A DNA stretch of 48,902 bases. Origin: a virus. The DNA lies in IMG/VR virus record IMGVR_UViG_3300036861_000240, positions 1 to 48,902 of that record; one strand, written 5' to 3'. The notes under the pieces are model-generated. The model saw only the letters and a program-made list of their open reading frames with translations. It searched no databases and was not told where the DNA came from. Position 1 is the stretch's first letter, and each line of letters begins with the position of its first letter. The translations under genes and the position numbers were made by a program. Of the stretch, positions 3,453 to 48,902 are shown one piece after another.

Positions 3453-3944
3453 CTAGGCGGTGATGGGGCCTTTTTGCCCGCTCAGGTCGCGTGCGCGCAG
3501 CGGCGGAAGCGGCGGCGGCGCGGTGGCCGTCCGTGGCTTCGGTCGCCATGATTCACCGTCTGGCTCACCCGCCGTCGTCGGCACCACGACGGCGATGGGG
3601 CGCGCCGGCTCGCCGCCGGTGCGGGTCATTGCCATCGTCACCGGCGCGAGCTGCGCGGTTGGTAGTGGATCATCGCCGTATTGCGCATTGACGCCGGAGA
3701 CGGTGCCCGAAGCGGCCGCGCCGCTCATCAGTCCGGTCAATGCAAAGAAGAGGATTCGCTCGGGCGGTAGCTGTAGCGCGAGACACGTCGCGATGCCCAG
3801 CGCCATCCCGACCGCGAGCGAGAGTGGGTAGAGGTAGCGGCTGGGAACGCCGAAGCCGCGCGCGGCCGCGACGATCGCGATGACGGCCGGTACGCCCATG
3901 AGGGGAGTCGCCTCCGGTGGGATCTGCGTCGCCATCGGCTCCAT
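3453..3944 (-). CDS. Putative holin
   Basis: 163 residues. The ATG at 3944 is preceded by AAGGAGG at 9 nt, which fixes the start. Three hydrophobic stretches lie near residues 13-30, 35-52 and 58-78 (LMGVPAVIAIVAAARGFGV, LYPLSLAVGMALGIATCLAL, ILFFALTGLMSGAAASG). A long Pro-rich polar tail follows. A compact multi-span N terminus with a charged tail fits a phage holin, which permeabilises the inner membrane at lysis. It is the last gene of the late block, next to three other small membrane or coiled proteins. Exact holin family not assigned. Confidence 0.6.
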   Translation of the reverse strand: MEPMATQIPPEATPLMGVPAVIAIVAAARGFGVPSRYLYPLSLAVGMALGIATCLALQLPPERILFFALTGLMSGAAASGTVSGVNAQYGDDPLPTAQLAPVTMAMTRTGGEPARPIAVVVPTTAGEPDGESWRPKPRTATAPPPLPPLRARDLSGQKGPITA

Positions 3945-3946
3945 GG

Positions 3947-4387
3947 TTACTTTCCTCCTTGGGATGTTCGTTCTGCGTCCTCGCGTCGCCGGTTGCGCCG
4001 CACGCCGTAGCGCTCGATCCAGCGAAAGTCGATCTCCTCGCATTTGGCGTCGATCACGATCAGGATGGCCGTCGCAAAGGATGCCAGCGATGTGAAGGTT
4101 TCATACCAGGATCCTCGCACGCTGACGGGCGGCGCGAGCAAGAGCGCCCAATATCCGATGGCGACGTTCAGCCCGAGGATGATCGAGTAGGCGACGGTCC
4201 GGCGCCGTAATCCGCGTGCGCGGCGAATGCGTTCTCCGTTCTGGCCGCCGCCGCTCAGCCAACGAACGCGAGCGTCGAAGCGGCGGAACTGCGGGATCAG
4301 GACGGTTAGACCATAGAGCGAGATCGCCAGCCACACGATCTCGAGGACGCCGATGGTCTCCAGGCTGGGGACGAGATTCAACATCAT
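3947..4387 (-). CDS. Multi-span membrane protein (lysis region)
   Basis: 146 residues with three likely membrane spans: about 13-31 (VLEIVWLAISLYGLTVLI), 66-86 and 97-113. A basic loop lies between spans 1 and 2 and the C terminus is highly charged. Its start overlaps the upstream gene and it ends just before the holin ribosome site. Could be a second holin, an antiholin or another lysis accessory; sequence alone does not decide. Confidence 0.55.
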   Translation of the reverse strand: MMLNLVPSLETIGVLEIVWLAISLYGLTVLIPQFRRFDARVRWLSGGGQNGERIRRARGLRRRTVAYSIILGLNVAIGYWALLLAPPVSVRGSWYETFTSLASFATAILIVIDAKCEEIDFRWIERYGVRRNRRREDAERTSQGGK

Positions 4388-4578
4388 CGCTGACGTCGTC
4401 GCCTCCTTTGGTCGTCGTGAATGAGGGAGAGGTCGATGTCGAGCACGCTGAGCCGTTCGTCGACAGCGTCGATCCGTTCACGCGCCTGATCGACTGCGGG
4501 TCGCCGCGGCAGCTCGTCCTCCTCGTGTGGGTGTTTGCGCACCCACAGACGCTCGACTAGGGCCTGCAGCAGATTCAT
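4384..4578 (-). CDS. Small charged coiled-coil protein
   Basis: 64 residues, helical and strongly charged, with a short coiled coil (ARERIDAVDERLSVLDIDL) and an Arg-rich end. ATGA overlaps at both ends place it firmly in the operon. No family recognised. Confidence 0.55.
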   Translation of the reverse strand: MNLLQALVERLWVRKHPHEEDELPRRPAVDQARERIDAVDERLSVLDIDLSLIHDDQRRRRRQR

Positions 4579-32595: not shown

Positions 32596-32631
32596 ATCGG
32601 TTTCTCCTGCGGTGTTGTTCAACGTGAACAC

Positions 32632-38213: not shown

Positions 38214-40082
38214 CTAGGTCTCGAAGAACGCCGCGCTGGCGACGATGGGTCCGCGGTCGATCAGGTCGAGGGCGCGGAGCTTCCCGAGGGCAGACGAGTA
38301 GCTGCCGCTCGATTGCGACATGGGTGTGCGCGCCGCTAGGTCATCGCGCGTGACGGCGTTTGGATAGAGATCGACGGCAGCGGCCAGGATGATTCCCGAC
38401 CAGGTGCTGGCCCCGAGTCGGGCGAGCCAGTAATCGAGTAGCGCGCGGCCGCGCGGCAGAGGCACGACGGGCCCAACCTCTGCGAGCCCGCGGGCCGTGA
38501 TCCGTAGAGGCGAAGCGTCCGTGGCGCTGCCCTCGAGGCGGCCCGCGGCGCGGCCGGCGGCGAGGGCCGATGACCAACTGCCGCTCGTCGTCGAGTAGGG
38601 CTGGAGGACGGCGAGCTGTCTGCGCGTGCGTCCCGCCGGGAATTGCGCAAGCACGTTGAGGATCGCGCGTTCGGTCGGCGTGATGGGGCGGTCCGCAGCG
38701 GGTTCGGCGCCGTTTGCCGCCAGAGGTCGCGGACGCTCATCGAGCGACGTTTTGATGACTTCGCTGCCGCGCGACACCATAGTCAGCGGTTCCTTGATCT
38801 CCTCCGTCGGCGGCTCGAATCGGAGCGGCGTCGGTGGTCCGGATCGGGCGCGTCCGCTCGGGTGGCGCTGCTGCTCGTCGTAGCGATCGACCAGGGCGCG
38901 CAGCTCGTCGCGGATCGGGTCGAGCTTCGCGGCGGCGTCGCGGAGGCGATCGAGGAAGGTCCATAGCTCGGTGATCGAGGCGGCCCAGGCGCGGAGGTCG
39001 TCGATCTGCCCGGGCGTGATGACGGGCACGTCGACGCGCTCGACGATGCGCTCCGGTTCGTCTTCTCGCAGTTTGGATGCTTGCATTTGGGACGCCTTCG
39101 CGAGTGCGCCCTCCAGCTCCGCGACGCGGGCGCGCAGGAGCTTCGGGTCATCGGCCTTCGCGCGCTCGATCGACGTCGCCAGACGTTCGCGCAGCCTGGC
39201 CAGGTCGACGTCGGCGAGCGTGCGCGGGACGAGCCGCATGGTGCCGACCTTCGGTGTGGAGGAGCTGTCGAACGTCTCGCGCGTCCGGATATGGACGCGG
39301 CGAAACACGTCGAGCCAGGCCGGCGACCAGATCCATGCCTCGCCGATCTCGAGCGTCGGCAGCGAGCTCATCAACTCGGCGCGCTGCTCGGGAGTCCCAT
39401 GGACCTTGATCCACTCGTCGATCGCGGCGCGATCCTGCGGCGCGATCGTGCGGAGCGCGATCAGGACCTCGACCTGCGTCAGCACGTCCTTGTTGATCAC
39501 CGCCGAGCGCTGCGTGATGAGCGTCACGCCCAGACCACGCGCGCGGCCGCGGCGGACGAGATCCTCGATCGCGCCGAGGAGCCGCTCGGCGCCCTTCATC
39601 GGCTTTTGCGGCGCGTAGGCGTCGGCCTCGTCCAAGACCAGGTGGAGCGGCTCGCGGTTGCGGTGGTAGAGCCGCTCCGCGAAGTCGGTCATGAACCGGA
39701 TCTGCTCGCCCTTGCGCAGGTGTTGGAAATTGAGCACGCAGGAGAGTCGCTCGTCGACGACCAGATCCGCGATCGTGGCGCCGGCGGCGACGTCGAGCGG
39801 TATGTCGCCATATTCCTCGCCGCCGATCACGACGATCGGCAGTCCAGGACTGAGACCGTCGGCCGAGGAGCGCAGCCCCCACCAGACGCCGATCGGGTCG
39901 ACCACGACGACCGGCAGCCCGGCTTTGAGCATCTCCTCGACGAGGACGCTGGCTGTATAGGTCTTACCTACGCCCCGCTTGGCCAGAATGGCGAAGGTCT
40001 GCGTTACCGCATCGAGCGGAAGCTCGAAGCCAGGAGCGATCGCGAGGGCGCCGGTTGCGGGAGCGAGCCTCGTCACGATCAC
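38214..40082 (-). CDS. HerA-like ATPase with winged-helix tail
   Basis: 622 residues. DUF87/HerA-type motor: Walker A AKRGVGKT (residues 34-41), Walker B LHLVLDEADAYAPQ (about 147-160), sensor-like GVTLITQRSAVINK. A long coiled linker follows, then two winged-helix-like repeats at the C terminus that share YS-x-TSGSWSSAL and SSGSYSSALGKL. HerA proteins normally work with the nuclease NurA in end resection, but no NurA is visible here. Could act in DNA processing, packaging or defence; undecided. Confidence 0.75.
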   Translation of the reverse strand: MIVTRLAPATGALAIAPGFELPLDAVTQTFAILAKRGVGKTYTASVLVEEMLKAGLPVVVVDPIGVWWGLRSSADGLSPGLPIVVIGGEEYGDIPLDVAAGATIADLVVDERLSCVLNFQHLRKGEQIRFMTDFAERLYHRNREPLHLVLDEADAYAPQKPMKGAERLLGAIEDLVRRGRARGLGVTLITQRSAVINKDVLTQVEVLIALRTIAPQDRAAIDEWIKVHGTPEQRAELMSSLPTLEIGEAWIWSPAWLDVFRRVHIRTRETFDSSSTPKVGTMRLVPRTLADVDLARLRERLATSIERAKADDPKLLRARVAELEGALAKASQMQASKLREDEPERIVERVDVPVITPGQIDDLRAWAASITELWTFLDRLRDAAAKLDPIRDELRALVDRYDEQQRHPSGRARSGPPTPLRFEPPTEEIKEPLTMVSRGSEVIKTSLDERPRPLAANGAEPAADRPITPTERAILNVLAQFPAGRTRRQLAVLQPYSTTSGSWSSALAAGRAAGRLEGSATDASPLRITARGLAEVGPVVPLPRGRALLDYWLARLGASTWSGIILAAAVDLYPNAVTRDDLAARTPMSQSSGSYSSALGKLRALDLIDRGPIVASAAFFET

Positions 40083-42266: not shown

Positions 42267-42467
42267 TCAGTCCGCCAGCTCGGCGGCGGTGAAGCCGCTC
42301 ACGCGGTAGTGCGGCCGCGCGTAGTGGCTCTGACCGTATGCCGATCGCTGGCGAACCTTCTGCTCGAGCACGAGGTCGACGACGGCCGCGCCGCCCGCGT
42401 GCTCGCGCTCGAATCGATCCGCCAGCGCCTCGGCATCGTCGCGGCTGCGGGCGATTTCTACGTACAT
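42267..42467 (-). CDS. Small protein, 66 residues
   Basis: ATG with GGAG at 8 nt, first gene after P42.5. Reads RSRDDAEALADRFEREHAGG and a C-terminal part with QRSAYGQSHYARPHYRVSGF. No family recognised. Confidence 0.55.
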   Translation of the reverse strand: MYVEIARSRDDAEALADRFEREHAGGAAVVDLVLEQKVRQRSAYGQSHYARPHYRVSGFTAAELAD

Positions 42468-42499
42468 GGTGCGCTCCGGTGGTGGTTTCTGCTGTACAC

Positions 42500-42528
42500 A
42501 GTATAGCAGGTGTCTAGACCGGATGCAA
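42500..42528 (-). promoter_or_regulatory. Accessory promoter P42.5
   Basis: TTGCAT (42528-42523), 17 bp, TATACT (42505-42500). GCGCCAC (plus-strand GTGGCGC, 42530-42536) ends 1 bp before the -35. Motif, -35 and part of the spacer are inside the last codons of the dpdA-like gene. Confidence 0.85.
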
Positions 42529-43134
42529 GGTGGCGCGACCTGGGAGCAGGCTAGCGCGCAGGAGCGGCGATTGAGCGTTGATGTCGTCGAGCCAGCGCAG
42601 GAGTTGCGGCAGATTCCGATCCCGCCCGAACGCGAGGAAGGTTCCGTCTGCCGAGTCGTAGAGGCTCACCCGGCCCGCGCGGAGGCGGCGGTAGCTGTTG
42701 ACGCGGCCCAGGTGCACCCACTTGCCGCGCTGGTGAGCCTCGGCCGCCACCGCGTAGGCAGCTTCGCTCAGCTTCCACTCTGTCGACCCGCCCACAAACA
42801 CGCAGTCGACCGCTGGCCAGTCGAGCGTGCGCCAGTCGATACCATCCTGCGCGACCAGTGCGGCCGGGAATCCGCGCTGGCGGATCGCGGCGAGCACGGG
42901 CCGCGCAGGCTCCCAGGTGCCGATTGGGTCGCCGAGCACGTCAGGCGCGGTCACGAACAGGCACCGATCGGCGTACGGCGCGTGGAGATCGATGTAGCGC
43001 AGGTGCCGGTCGAGGTCGTAGAGGTCGGGCCGACGGAAGGTGCCATGGTCGATCGCATATGCCACGTCCGCGAGTCCGTCGCGCGCCCCGTTGCCGCCGC
43101 CTGGGTTGAGCATCAAGCCGAGGTCCGGGCGCAA
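42514..43134 (-). CDS. DpdA-like 7-deazaguanine DNA transglycosylase
   Basis: 206 residues from a TTG. The pattern fits the TGT/DpdA superfamily of phage DNA-modifying enzymes: FVTAPDVLGDP with D65, ALVAQDGIDW, CVFVGGSTEWKLSEAAYA, KWVHLGRVNSYRRLR and SLYDSADGTFLAFG. DpdA replaces guanine in DNA with a 7-deazaguanine, protecting phage DNA from restriction. I see no queC, queD, queE or folE-like gene here, so precursor would have to come from the host. Family assignment is from memory of motif order. Confidence 0.6.
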   Translation of the reverse strand: MRPDLGLMLNPGGGNGARDGLADVAYAIDHGTFRRPDLYDLDRHLRYIDLHAPYADRCLFVTAPDVLGDPIGTWEPARPVLAAIRQRGFPAALVAQDGIDWRTLDWPAVDCVFVGGSTEWKLSEAAYAVAAEAHQRGKWVHLGRVNSYRRLRAGRVSLYDSADGTFLAFGRDRNLPQLLRWLDDINAQSPLLRASLLPGRATLHPV

Positions 43135-43178
43135 CGGTAGAGACGCGGCTCCTCCCCCGGAACCGGTCAGGTAGATGA

Positions 43179-43424
43179 TCAGAGGAGCGCGAGCTGTTTG
43201 GGCGCGCGCCCGGGGCGGGCGGTCGGCCCCTTCGGGCAGAGATGCAGAACACCGGCGTCGACCGCCGCCTGTTCGCGCGCTCTATGCACGTCGCCGCCCA
43301 TGATGTTGTGTCCGCTCGGCCGCATACAGTTCCGACCGGGGGCAGCGAGACAGGTCGGGCATGCGACTTCGATCGCGGGATGACGCGGCCATTCCTGGCC
43401 GCAGTAGGCGCAGCTCATCACCAT
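43179..43424 (-). CDS. Zinc-finger protein, 81 residues
   Basis: MVMSCAYCGQEWPRHP and CPTCLAAPGRNCMRPSGH, then DVHRAREQAAVDAG. Two CxxC pairs plus C and H suggest two zinc sites. The CPTC-APG-x-C-...-SGH-...-HxARE form is common in small phage proteins. The ATG overlaps the methyltransferase stop (TGATG). Confidence 0.65.
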   Translation of the reverse strand: MVMSCAYCGQEWPRHPAIEVACPTCLAAPGRNCMRPSGHNIMGGDVHRAREQAAVDAGVLHLCPKGPTARPGRAPKQLALL

Positions 43425-45613
43425 CACGCGACCGCCTCGGCCGCCGGCCGGCGGTAGAGCATGGACGTCGCCAGCGCCTTCGCGATCCGGCAGGCGACCG
43501 CGTTCCCGATCTGCTTGCAGACCTGCGAGCGTGTGCCGGCGAAGTGGTACTCGGGCGGGAACGACATCGCCCCGGCCAGCTCGTGATTCGCGAGCATCCG
43601 AAATAGGATGTCGAGCACGTGCAGCACGCCGTCGATGTAGACGAGCCGTCGACGATCGACACCCTCGGGGATCTCGACGTCGAGCGTCGGGTCGGCCAGG
43701 CCGAAGGTCGGCTCGCTCCGGATCGTGCGGAGTGGCTCGTCGATCGAGTGCGGGCGGCGCGGCACGCCGTGGCTGTCGCCGTAGAAGGGCGCGATCATCG
43801 GCTGTGCGAGCGCGTGCGACGCCTTCGTCTGCACGACGCTGAGCGGCTCGTCGGTCGAGCGAACGTACTTGCCGTTGCCGCCCGTCTGACCGAGCTGCGC
43901 GATCACACCCTGCGCGAGCTGCGGCGTGCGCGTCGCATTGATCGTCGGCAGTGGTTGATCGACGGCGTGCGCGCGCGGCGCCTGGCCCGGTCGTTCGCCG
44001 AACGTCGCGATGAGCGCGCTCGGCTCGACTAGCGCGTGATGGTTCGTCCCGGAGATCGCCGAGAGCGGCGCGTCGGGGCTCGCCGGCGAGCTGCGGCCAT
44101 AGGCGCGGTCGATGATCGGCTGGGCGAGGGCGAGACGATCGCTCGTCATCACCGTCGGCGCCGGCAGCTCGACGGACCTGGCCTCGGCGCGCGGGCCGTA
44201 GGGGACGATCTGCGGGTCGACCAGGCCGTGCCGCTGTCGCGTCGTCGCGGACGAGAGCGGCCGCTCGAGGCTCTCCGGACCGCCGTTGCCGTAGTAGGCG
44301 CTCACGTGCGGCTCGAACAGACGAACGAAGCCGGCGGTCGCGATCGTCGGGATCGGTAGCTCCACCGGGCGCGGTTCGCCGCCGCTGGCCTGGGAGAGGA
44401 CGAATGGCGCCGCGCTCGATTCGACCAGGTAGGGCGGGCGGTCTGTCAGCGCGCCGATCGGATCGTCGGGTGACTTCGGGATCGGGTTCGACTGGCGCGC
44501 GAGCACGAAGGGCGCGGCAGTCGGCTCGACGTGGGCGATCCCGCCGCCGTGGCCGCTGGTCGCCGGCGCGACCGGCTCGTCGAGATCTCGCGGCCGGTTG
44601 TTCAGGCGGTTCGCGAAGGTGAATGGCTCGGCCGCGCCCTGCGCCAGACCGATCCGCGCGATCGAGGACACGCAGGGGATCGGCTCCCGCTCGACTGACC
44701 TCGCGCGACCTGGCACGACCTGGCGGCCGTCCCATGAGTCGCGCTGGCCGATCAGGAAAGGCTCGTGCAGCTCTTCGCGCAGTTCGGATGCTTGCATCGG
44801 GGCACCTTCGGGCAGGTCGAGCAGGCGGATGTAGAGCGGCGCCAGCGGTCCGCCGAATTGCGCGAAGCCGCGCGCGATCCGGCGGCGGGTGTTGATCGAG
44901 AGCGGCACCTTGCGGTCGAGGATCGACTTCCCGGCGAGCGACCAGTCGATGATCTCGCGCGCGGCGCGCCACGGCGCGAGCTGGGCGCCGAGGGGGCCTA
45001 GCTTCCGCGGGTCGCGGGCGTGCGTCGGCGCCGGCCACTCGATTGCCCAGCCGTCTTTCCGCGCTTGCAGAAAGAAGCGGGTGCGGGTCGTGGCGTCGCC
45101 GAAGTCGGCGGCGTTCAGGAACCGCCACTCGACGGTATAGCCGAGGCTCCAGAACGCGGCGACCCACTTCTGAAACTCGGCGCCCTTACCACGCGGCGCG
45201 AGCTTGCCGTTGACGACCGGTCCCCAGGTCGTGTACTCGGGGACGTTCTCGACCAGCACACACTGGACGTCCAACTCACGGCACCACTTGATCACTTCCC
45301 ATCCGCCGGTCCGCTTCTGGTCGAGGATCGGCTTGCCGCCGCGGGCCTGGCTGAAATGCGTGCACTCGGGCGAGGAGACGAGCAGGTCGACCCAGCCGCC
45401 CGGGACCGCTTCGTGCGGGTCGATCTTGGTGAGGTCCTGACAGAAGTGCCGGGCCCACGGGTAATTCGCGGTGTGGGTCGCGATCGCCTCGGGCGAGTGG
45501 TTGACGCCGATGAGGTCGATCGACATCCCCAGGTCGAGGGCCGCGTTGATGACGCCGGTACTCGTGCCGCCGGCGCCGCAATATTGATCGACGACGACGA
45601 GTGGCTCCGTCAT
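43424..45613 (-). CDS. 5-methylcytosine DNA methyltransferase with repeats
   Basis: 729 residues. Motif I VDQYCGAGGTSTG (8-20), catalytic motif IV SSPECTHFS with C84 (SPEC in place of the usual PPC), motif VI VENVPEY (about 121-127), motif VIII TTRTRFFLQ. Residues 270-642 hold about ten degenerate repeats of 32-38 residues, with consensus near YG....R-V-D-x-P-L-x-T-I....LV-x-P. Motifs IX and X (FPPEYHF; KQIGNAVACR) follow. The repeats sit where the target recognition domain lies, so several sequences may be methylated (inference). ATG 45613 chosen over an upstream one. Confidence 0.85.
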   Translation of the reverse strand: MTEPLVVVDQYCGAGGTSTGVINAALDLGMSIDLIGVNHSPEAIATHTANYPWARHFCQDLTKIDPHEAVPGGWVDLLVSSPECTHFSQARGGKPILDQKRTGGWEVIKWCRELDVQCVLVENVPEYTTWGPVVNGKLAPRGKGAEFQKWVAAFWSLGYTVEWRFLNAADFGDATTRTRFFLQARKDGWAIEWPAPTHARDPRKLGPLGAQLAPWRAAREIIDWSLAGKSILDRKVPLSINTRRRIARGFAQFGGPLAPLYIRLLDLPEGAPMQASELREELHEPFLIGQRDSWDGRQVVPGRARSVEREPIPCVSSIARIGLAQGAAEPFTFANRLNNRPRDLDEPVAPATSGHGGGIAHVEPTAAPFVLARQSNPIPKSPDDPIGALTDRPPYLVESSAAPFVLSQASGGEPRPVELPIPTIATAGFVRLFEPHVSAYYGNGGPESLERPLSSATTRQRHGLVDPQIVPYGPRAEARSVELPAPTVMTSDRLALAQPIIDRAYGRSSPASPDAPLSAISGTNHHALVEPSALIATFGERPGQAPRAHAVDQPLPTINATRTPQLAQGVIAQLGQTGGNGKYVRSTDEPLSVVQTKASHALAQPMIAPFYGDSHGVPRRPHSIDEPLRTIRSEPTFGLADPTLDVEIPEGVDRRRLVYIDGVLHVLDILFRMLANHELAGAMSFPPEYHFAGTRSQVCKQIGNAVACRIAKALATSMLYRRPAAEAVA
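43685..44805 (-). repeat. Recognition-domain repeats in the methyltransferase
   Basis: About ten degenerate units of 32-38 residues. Clear examples begin AAPFVLARQSN, AAPFVLSQASG, VSAYYGNGGPES, IVPYGPRAEARS, IIDRAYGRSSPAS, IAQLGQTGGNG and IAPFYGDSHGVP. DNA-level identity is low, so the array is old or under diversifying selection. Boundaries are approximate. Confidence 0.7.
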
Positions 45614-45813
45614 CGGTAGAACCTCGGCGTCGGCCGCCGTTCGGCGTTCGCCCAAACGATGGTCATCGCCGCGCGGAGCCCTTCGGCTGCGCCGGCCATG
45701 GTGCGGGCGTCGTCGTAGCGTCCGCGGCTGCGCAGGCGGTTGGATTGTTGCTGGGCGGCGGCACGCTCCGCGTCCAAGTCGGCGATCAACTTCTGCCGAA
45801 TCAGCGCCGCCAT
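45610..45813 (-). CDS. Small helical protein, 67 residues
   Basis: Helical and charged: LIADLDAERAAAQQQSNRLR, AAEGLRAAMTIVWANAERR. ATGA overlap with the methyltransferase downstream. No family recognised. Confidence 0.5.
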   Translation of the reverse strand: MAALIRQKLIADLDAERAAAQQQSNRLRSRGRYDDARTMAGAAEGLRAAMTIVWANAERRPTPRFYR

Positions 45814-47202: not shown

Positions 47203-47622
47203 CTACTCGAAGCCGAGATTTCTGGTCTTGAGGCTGACGTGGCCCTCGCGGCCGACGATGACGTGATCGAGTAGCTCGACGTCCAGGAGCCGCCCCGCGG
47301 CGACCGCGCTGTGCGTGACGTCGATGTCCTGCCGGCTCGGCGTCGGATCGCCGCTCGGGTGGTTGTGGACGAGGACGATGCTCGAGGCGTTGACCCGAAT
47401 CGCCTCGCGGAACAACTCCGCCATCCGGACGTGGATGCTGTTGATCGTGCCCTGGTAGAGGACCCGCGGTTCGCCGAGCATCCGGCCCCTGTTGTCGAGA
47501 TGGACGACGCGCATCTGCTCCTGTTCGAGCTCGGTCATGTCCCACACGAATGGCAGCACGCTCGCGGGTGTGGTGATGGTCGCGCGGGTCTTGGGCGTCG
47601 CGAGCGGCATGGTTGTCTGCAT
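47203..47622 (-). CDS. RadC-like JAB/MPN domain protein
   Basis: 139 residues. Contains the RadC-type JAMM motif VLVHNHPSGDPTPSRQDIDV with the His and Asp metal ligands, and LLDVELLDHVIVGREGHVSL after it. RadC-like proteins are frequent next to DNA-modification and anti-restriction genes; catalytic role uncertain. ATG shortly after the upstream stop. Confidence 0.85.
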   Translation of the reverse strand: MQTTMPLATPKTRATITTPASVLPFVWDMTELEQEQMRVVHLDNRGRMLGEPRVLYQGTINSIHVRMAELFREAIRVNASSIVLVHNHPSGDPTPSRQDIDVTHSAVAAGRLLDVELLDHVIVGREGHVSLKTRNLGFE

Positions 47623-48150: not shown

Positions 48151-48184
48151 TCCGTGTACTCCGTTTTCTGTATCGCGTGTACGC

Positions 48185-48270: not shown

Positions 48271-48746
48271 CTAGGTGCCCTGCGCCTCGTGCCTCGTTCG
48301 GTAGCCGCGCAGTTTGAGCATGAGTGGCGCCGCCTGCTCGAGGTTCAGCTCCATCTCGCGCATGAAGAACTCCATCACGAACCCGTCGCCGATCGCGCCC
48401 TCGGCGGCCTCCAGGAGGGTCAGCGCGAGTGAGCGCGCCTCGGCCGGGCTGAGCTGTAAGCCGATCAGCGCCTTGTCCCGGACCGGTCTCCTGCGTTCGA
48501 CCTGTTGGTCGGAATCGAGAGCGCGAGGCCGTCGGCGTCGCGGTGCGCGGCGCAGCGGACCCGCGTGGCCCGGAGCGGGACGGTGACCGTGCGGGTGCCT
48601 GGCTGCAAGATGTAGGCCGTGTACAGCTCGGGCTCGCCCGGTTGGCCGCAGTGGTCCGTGGTGTCGCCGGCGTAATCAGCCTCCTGCTGCGCCAGGATCG
48701 TCACCGCCGCCCGCTCGATTTCCGGGACAGGTGGCTGGTCGCTCAT
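48271..48746 (-). pseudogene. Hypothetical gene, apparently frameshifted
   Basis: The first frame (ATG 48746) encodes MSDQPPVPEIERAAVTILAQ and CGQPGEPELYTAYILQPGTR and stops at 48465. An open frame follows, DKALIGLQLSPAEARSLALT and MEFFMREMELNLEQAAPLML to the TAG at 48271, with no good start. Together they look like one actinophage-type protein of about 150 residues. A 1-nt indel near 48476-48520 would join them. It includes one arm of the terminal inverted repeat, so assembly errors are a concern. Confidence 0.55.
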
Positions 48747-48902
48747 GGCTCCGGTACGTAGTCCGCCGCGCCGGCGAGACCCCCGACGGCCGGCCCATCG
48801 GCACGACCTACGCCGGCGACACCACGGACCACTGCGGCCAACCGGGCGAGCCCGAGCTGTACACGGCCTACATCTTGCAGCCAGGCACCCGCACGGTCAC
48901 CG
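48581..48902. repeat. 94-bp inverted repeat at the right end
   Basis: 48809-48902 is the exact reverse complement of 48581-48674, with a 134-bp unique spacer. The plus-strand arm is in frame with upstream sequence reading RRAGETPDGRPIGTT, so the end could be another copy of the same gene reading outward, a recombination joint or an assembly fold-back. The contig stops exactly at the end of the arm. Confidence 0.9.

Follow-up and report, generated by a model that had tools for sequence, protein, structure and literature searches.

In tRNA-guanine transglycosylases (TGT), bases are exchanged covalently through a C-terminal Asp. The canonical DpdA enzymes of phages such as 9g, CAjan and Rosebush are encoded in operons with QueC, QueD and QueE (PMC6884629). 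Other phages have DpdA only, in the absence of FolE, QueD, QueE and QueC: these singletons form the "group 3" of Hutinet et al. (2019; PMC6884629), which includes Orion and Salmonella phage 7-11. No 7-deazaguanine was detectable in Orion, a negative result that came from a host without preQ0 genes, and Salmonella 7-11 showed a trace (PMC6884629). In the same survey, YhhQ did not correlate with any phage group (PMC6884629). The precursor supply of pathway-less dpdA phages has been a puzzle since 2019, and no clear source was evident for the largest group described. In bacteria, the dpd islands (DpdA/DpdB) insert 7-deazaguanine into DNA and about 9% of them include YhhQ (GATOR-GC preprint, PMC11888242). 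The QPTR/YhhQ family imports preQ0, preQ1 or queuine (PMC11130926), and in EC151 and the Seuratviruses a preQ0 transporter lies beside a full preQ0 pathway (PMC8310023).

The DNA analysed here (hereafter, the window) comprises all 48,902 nucleotides of one IMG/VR virus record, and poses the same supply puzzle as the group 3 phages, i.e., a DpdA-type gene without a phage precursor pathway. The relevant features of the window are the following:

42514..43182, minus strand: putative compact DpdA/TGT-type base-exchange enzyme, 222 aa from the proposed CTG start (PHROG 15826, invariant columns, AlphaFold2, hhalign)
43179..43424, minus strand: small zinc finger of phage type, putatively DNA-binding, 81 aa (PF24623 Phage_zn_bind_8, 25.9 bits against a cut-off of 24)
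43424..45655, minus strand: C5-cytosine DNA methyltransferase, 743 aa (PF00145, E 1e-27; PHROG 116)
47203..47622, minus strand: RadC/JAB-domain protein (PF04002, E 3e-36), some 4 kb upstream of the enzyme
42493..42510, minus strand: 18-base element, one of five copies, whose minus-strand reading contains TATACT

The initial annotation placed the enzyme in the minus-strand ORF at 42514-43134 (206 aa, TTG start at 43134), in which all five of the motifs it listed (APDV, VAQDG, GGSTEWK, GKWVHLGRVNS and DGTF) are indeed found; a sixth motif that it had missed, AIDHGTF, carries the first Asp of the catalytic pocket. While the ORF itself stands, its start probably does not. Upstream of the TTG, the reading frame gives IIYLTG from a CTG at 43182; relatives begin 15-20 residues before the TTG equivalent, mostly with MIYLSG.. 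or VIYLTG..; and in an AlphaFold2 model built from the CTG, residues 3-6 are barrel strand 1. The CTG is hence favoured, because IIYLTG matches the start of most relatives and forms the first strand of the model. Since, furthermore, the CTG overlaps the TGA of the upstream gene (shared CTGA), as well as agreeing with the relatives' starts, the gene is taken as 42514-43182 and residue numbers count from this proposed start. An overlapping ORF on the plus strand (42466-43140) is regarded as a shadow ORF.

The methyltransferase, the zinc finger and the enzyme form, in this order, a run of three overlapping genes, as read directly in the DNA: the start of the zinc finger overlaps the methyltransferase stop and its own TGA overlaps the CTG of the enzyme. 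The enzyme had been described as lying next to a cytosine methyltransferase and a RadC-like gene in a putative anti-restriction island. The methyltransferase is indeed close by, with the zinc finger in between, but RadC is not a neighbour. As for the island, the three genes overlap in the manner of one operon, whereas RadC is far away and PADLOC gave no match for the enzyme; an anti-restriction role for the region is thus conjectural. Five near-identical copies of TGTACACAGTATAGCAGG occur in the window (at 32625, 35007, 37003, 42493 and 48178), compared with none in 100 shuffles, and, on the basis of their sequence, they are probably promoters for minus-strand genes. The gene run ending with the enzyme is flanked by the copies at 48178 and 42493 and might constitute one transcription unit.

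The window protein matches PHROG 15826 (E 6e-52; function label: unknown), as do all 63 members of the broad alignment, the window protein included. Profile searches of Pfam and NCBIfam assigned it to no family, and a profile search of solved structures returned noise only. By tblastn, 24 phage records contain a relative, many of them labelled "DpdA-like tRNA-guanine transglycosylase" by SEA-PHAGES; two such proteins, Aoka gp40 and GreaseLightnin gp55, belong to the same PHROG and are 44-46% identical to the window protein. Pattern search plus alignment yielded relatives in at least 564 of the 599 pattern-matched stretches from viruses and in 83 of the 111 from bacterial genomes, the bacterial carriers belonging chiefly to Actinomycetota and Pseudomonadota and, less often, to Chloroflexota and other groups. 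Four family members weakly match phrog_887 (queuine tRNA-ribosyltransferase). Members of this compact family have about 205-225 aa, as opposed to the 265-357 aa of canonical phage DpdA and to the larger DpdA of the bacterial islands (436-residue chain, PDB 7ui4), whose DpdB and restriction genes were not seen here either.

The AlphaFold2 model of the window protein is a TIM barrel of eight strands (mean pLDDT 91.5). The structure of tRNA TGT aligns to it with Z 14.5 and rmsd 3.2 over 202 residues; nevertheless, pyruvate kinase and ribulose-phosphate epimerase align equally well and, in consequence, the structure search was not used alone as proof. In other words, the overlay on TGT suggested beforehand yields a confident barrel, but the fold by itself does not single out TGT. 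The Vibrio phage nt-1 protein R9TGF0 is a weak fold match only.

It is profile comparison that upholds the DpdA-type claim: the compact family matches ten canonical phage DpdA sequences (DpdA1) with an hhalign probability of 95.4 and E 1.9e-8, with the pocket motifs in order. The hhalign register pairs DHGTF with DSGAF, APD with LD, VAQDG with FHxGE, and GG with GG, while the C-terminal Asp was aligned by eye. Direct hhalign of the compact family to tRNA TGT is weak (E 0.087), with Q112 and GG nonetheless in the right register; canonical DpdA versus TGT is also weak (E 0.015). Because the direct match to TGT is not significant, DpdA is needed as the bridge. The TGT profile PF01702 did not match anything in the window record even at E 10 (14/14 controls matched).

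Ten residues are invariant in 63 sequences (D45, P80, D81, Q112, F129, G132, H157, N162, D179 and G180) and G131 is nearly so; they sit at the C-terminal strand ends of the model, as in TGT, and the pocket set of the window enzyme consists of D45, D81, Q112, G131-G132 and D179. In ReqiPine5, R29Z and SHIN8, a His stands in place of the first Asp of DSADG, so that the second one, D179, is the likely nucleophile as judged from the alignment. The compact family shares superfamily and pocket motif order with canonical phage DpdA, but differs from it in (i) Gln112, invariant as in TGT, where the ten DpdA1 sequences have an invariant His (the His of their CFHxGE motif, taken to be His196 of PMC6884629); and (ii) NGCF/DGTF instead of DSGAF/DSSSW. 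It also lacks the zinc-binding subdomain of tRNA TGT. Sequence and model thus support placing the window protein with the DpdA/TGT base-exchange enzymes, though not with canonical DpdA1, as it is compact, has Gln for His and is devoid of the TGT zinc site.

Regarding the precursor, the initial report of no queC/D/E or folE-like gene was borne out by profile searches of the whole record, which may be incomplete: FolE, QueC, QueD, TGT and Vut_1 gave no match in its 48.9 kb, and neither did QueE with a locally built profile. A salvage transporter had been offered as one way out. In the window, there is no Vut_1 match nor any ORF with at least four predicted membrane segments that could hide one, but among relatives a transporter is the commonest neighbour, which favours salvage indirectly but strongly. 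The virus with the nearest capsid has no Vut_1 and no compact enzyme (the latter according to a search run without a positive control). The terminase and capsid relatives of the window virus are scattered, so that no host can be assigned. With neither importer nor pathway in the record, the host pool or genes beyond the record must supply the base. The window gene is a member of the family without its supplier.

Neighbours were clustered in a survey of 120 dereplicated loci. The dominant cluster is a small membrane protein present in 36/120 loci, always on the same strand as the compact gene and directly adjoining it in 33 of the 36, against 5.0 expected. One of its members, ReqiPine5 gp04, is a Vut_1 protein (PF02592, 38.9 bits against a cut-off of 27.2), i.e., it belongs to the QPTR family, and three members weakly match the queuosine precursor transporter model TIGR00697, below its equivalog cut-off. 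With a profile built from the cluster, Vut_1/QPTR is found in 53/120 loci, nearly always adjoining the compact gene. On the other hand, QueC, QueD or QueE occurs in 11 loci, and in one locus only do transporter and Que genes appear together (Fisher p 0.012, a rough value because the rows are related). Hence, unlike the phage groups of PMC6884629, the compact family does show a clear correlation with a YhhQ-type transporter which, in contrast to that of EC151, mostly replaces the pathway instead of accompanying it. In Aoka and GreaseLightnin, Vut_1 is just upstream of the enzyme, where the window has the zinc finger and the methyltransferase.

Some compact members resemble canonical DpdA in their operons: in L038, L052 and L053, QueC-QueE-QueD are followed by the compact gene, and the stretch encodes no canonical DpdA (the Que genes of L038 were confirmed by NCBIfam). 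Vut_1 is present in 21/36 full records of phages or viruses (17/36 above the PF02592 cut-off) and a QueC/QueD/FolE set in three, those of Sonali, SHIN8 and R29Z. These three phages combine a canonical DpdA and the pathway with a compact member, and, because of this coexistence, the latter may do something else there. In SHIN8 (PP627280), the compact gene is split by a frameshift into two overlapping ORFs (3884-4168 and 4147-4476). The same split is seen in phiG7, which like SHIN8 (a Seuratvirus) is an Escherichia phage, and may reflect either decay or programmed frameshifting; in an identical gene order (clamp, compact gene, DNA polymerase), the Vibrio phage R29Z has the gene intact. The records of L088 and L089, for their part, contain Vut_1 and a QueC-like gene without QueD or FolE.

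In the tree, the window enzyme falls in a clade of 45 rows (support 100/98), 28 of which are labelled as transporter-bearing, "none" labels being upper bounds (one locus so labelled has a truncated Vut_1 end at its contig edge). At least ten changes of the transporter label are required on well-supported branches, which indicates that the pairing was repeatedly gained or lost. Seven of the twelve pair-bearing bacterial genomes, all seven actinobacterial, have neither QueC nor TGT; each of these gives a single Vut_1 match, namely the neighbour of its compact enzyme and, therefore, the importer-enzyme pair looks self-contained at the level of gene content.

Natural deletions are found in phages. 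A near full-length Vut_1 copy is present in 12/12 mycobacteriophage records with the compact gene. GreaseLightnin and Brusacoram are 98.8% identical over 2.56 kb, up to around codon 60 of Vut_1, from which point Brusacoram lacks about 1.6 kb, that is, the rest of Vut_1 and the whole enzyme gene in one deletion; the enzyme is likewise missing from Arib1 and LOCV4, where the breakpoints differ. In all, near-isogenic Fishburnevirus phages with and without the pair (four loci) reveal at least three deletion breakpoints. As far as these genomes tell, the two genes are lost as a unit, and phages in the laboratory can do without the module.

Family, fold, motif set, linkage in relatives and absence of the pathway from the record are direct results; from there on, we infer the catalysis, the substrate, the base, its source and the benefit. 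The reading we find reasonably probable is that of a salvage-fed base-exchange enzyme of the DpdA/TGT kind that acts on DNA and, in the window, draws its base from the host pool. By analogy with TGT, D179 would attack C1' of guanosine and guanine would leave; an incoming 7-deazaguanine base (preQ0, preQ1 or queuine-like), suggested by the gene linkage in relatives, would be held by D45, D81, Q112 and G131-G132 and inserted into DNA rather than tRNA. The DNA substrate is proposed because the tRNA-recognising zinc subdomain is missing, the family is close to DpdA and, in two loci of one Gemmataceae MAG (L121, 7947-9017; L127, 7950-9059), the compact enzyme is fused to a C-terminal zinc ribbon of the ISL3-transposase type. 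The sequence of this fusion, which in L127 also has weak helix-turn-helix matches, suggests a DNA-targeted version. The virus would not make the base: many relatives would import it through the adjoining QPTR/YhhQ-type transporter, and the window virus would take it from the host pool or rely on genes beyond those of the record. Alongside cytosine methylation, resistance of the phage DNA to host nucleases is the likely benefit. Against this reading stand the results for the published singletons Orion and Salmonella 7-11, the three phages with both canonical and compact enzymes, the members with no visible source of the base, the weak direct match to tRNA TGT and a fold shared with other barrels.

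More tentatively, and with somewhat less than even confidence, a widespread salvage pair of QPTR importer and compact DpdA may hypermodify the DNA of phages and mobile elements with a 7-deazaguanine taken up from the environment, also in hosts without 7-deazaguanine metabolism such as Mycobacterium and Micromonospora, while supply-less members such as that of the window may use the host pool or some other base.

Among the alternatives, the one that survives best, though it is unlikely, is that the window enzyme no longer has a function and is a mobile leftover of some salvage or synthesis module whose supply was lost, comparable to the singleton DpdA phages published with unmodified DNA. The empty record (no Vut_1, FolE, QueC, QueD, QueE or candidate membrane protein), the negative mass spectrometry of Orion (PMC6884629) and the free loss of the module in Fishburnevirus fit this idea. 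However, the window enzyme looks selected, since its ORF is intact, all invariant pocket residues are kept although the nearest relative is only 49% identical, and the gene lies in an overlapping operon.

Slightly less likely still is a tRNA substrate with the same fold and chemistry, in which case enzyme and importer would together provide a queuosine-like modification of tRNA in the host or the phage. The normal role of QPTR transporters lies in tRNA queuosine supply (PMC11130926), the compact family keeps the Gln of TGT instead of the His of DpdA1, and in the seven Vut_1-bearing genomes without a PF01702 TGT the compact enzyme could replace it. Against a tRNA role stand the size of the family and its missing zinc subdomain (the window protein has only two Cys), DpdA as the closest profile, the DNA-type zinc ribbon of L121 and L127, and the fact that many members reside in hosts which already have TGT.

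It is improbable that guanine is exchanged for a base other than 7-deazaguanine, at least in members without a visible source, such as the window enzyme and the Nonomuraea clade. The latter comprises compact genes from bacterial genomes (Nonomuraea and Sphaerimonospora, eight loci); the Nonomuraea genomes behind six of these loci have no QueC, TGT or Vut_1 anywhere, and a Streptosporangiaceae/Nocardia clade likewise shows no visible base source beside the gene. The Nonomuraea genomes, and the coexistence of canonical and compact enzymes in three phages, would be in line with another base, but the compact family has the same pocket residues throughout and its recognisable linked supply genes are all part of 7-deazaguanine metabolism. 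Finally, a chance resemblance of some unrelated TIM-barrel enzyme to DpdA, to which the equally good alignments of pyruvate kinase and ribulose-phosphate epimerase and the lack of a Pfam family might point, is very hard to reconcile with the hhalign match (E 2e-8), the ordered pocket motifs and the genomic linkage to QueC/D/E and QPTR.

Singleton DpdAs have already been published, while the module of compact DpdA and QPTR importer appears to be a new variant: no description of the pairing was found in the open-licence papers covered, and an earlier mention elsewhere is possible. Because the pairing recurs, the salvage answer can be directly tested with standard M. smegmatis and Arthrobacter phages, and the natural deletion phages (Brusacoram versus GreaseLightnin) serve as ready controls. 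If salvage is true, the state of modification of these phages' DNA would vary with the growth medium.

Some further observations concern the surroundings of these genes. In L080 (2834-3733) and L089 (6439-7512), a protein is encoded just upstream of the compact enzyme; the L080 copy has a radical-SAM-like cysteine motif, and this neighbour might further modify the base. The region of the window that contains the enzyme also encodes a HerA-like ATPase of 622 aa (38214-40082), whose relatives are found in anti-phage systems. Lastly, at the right end of the record there is an exact 94-base inverted repeat (48581-48674 / 48809-48902), which is either a genuine terminal hairpin or a fold-back from the assembly.
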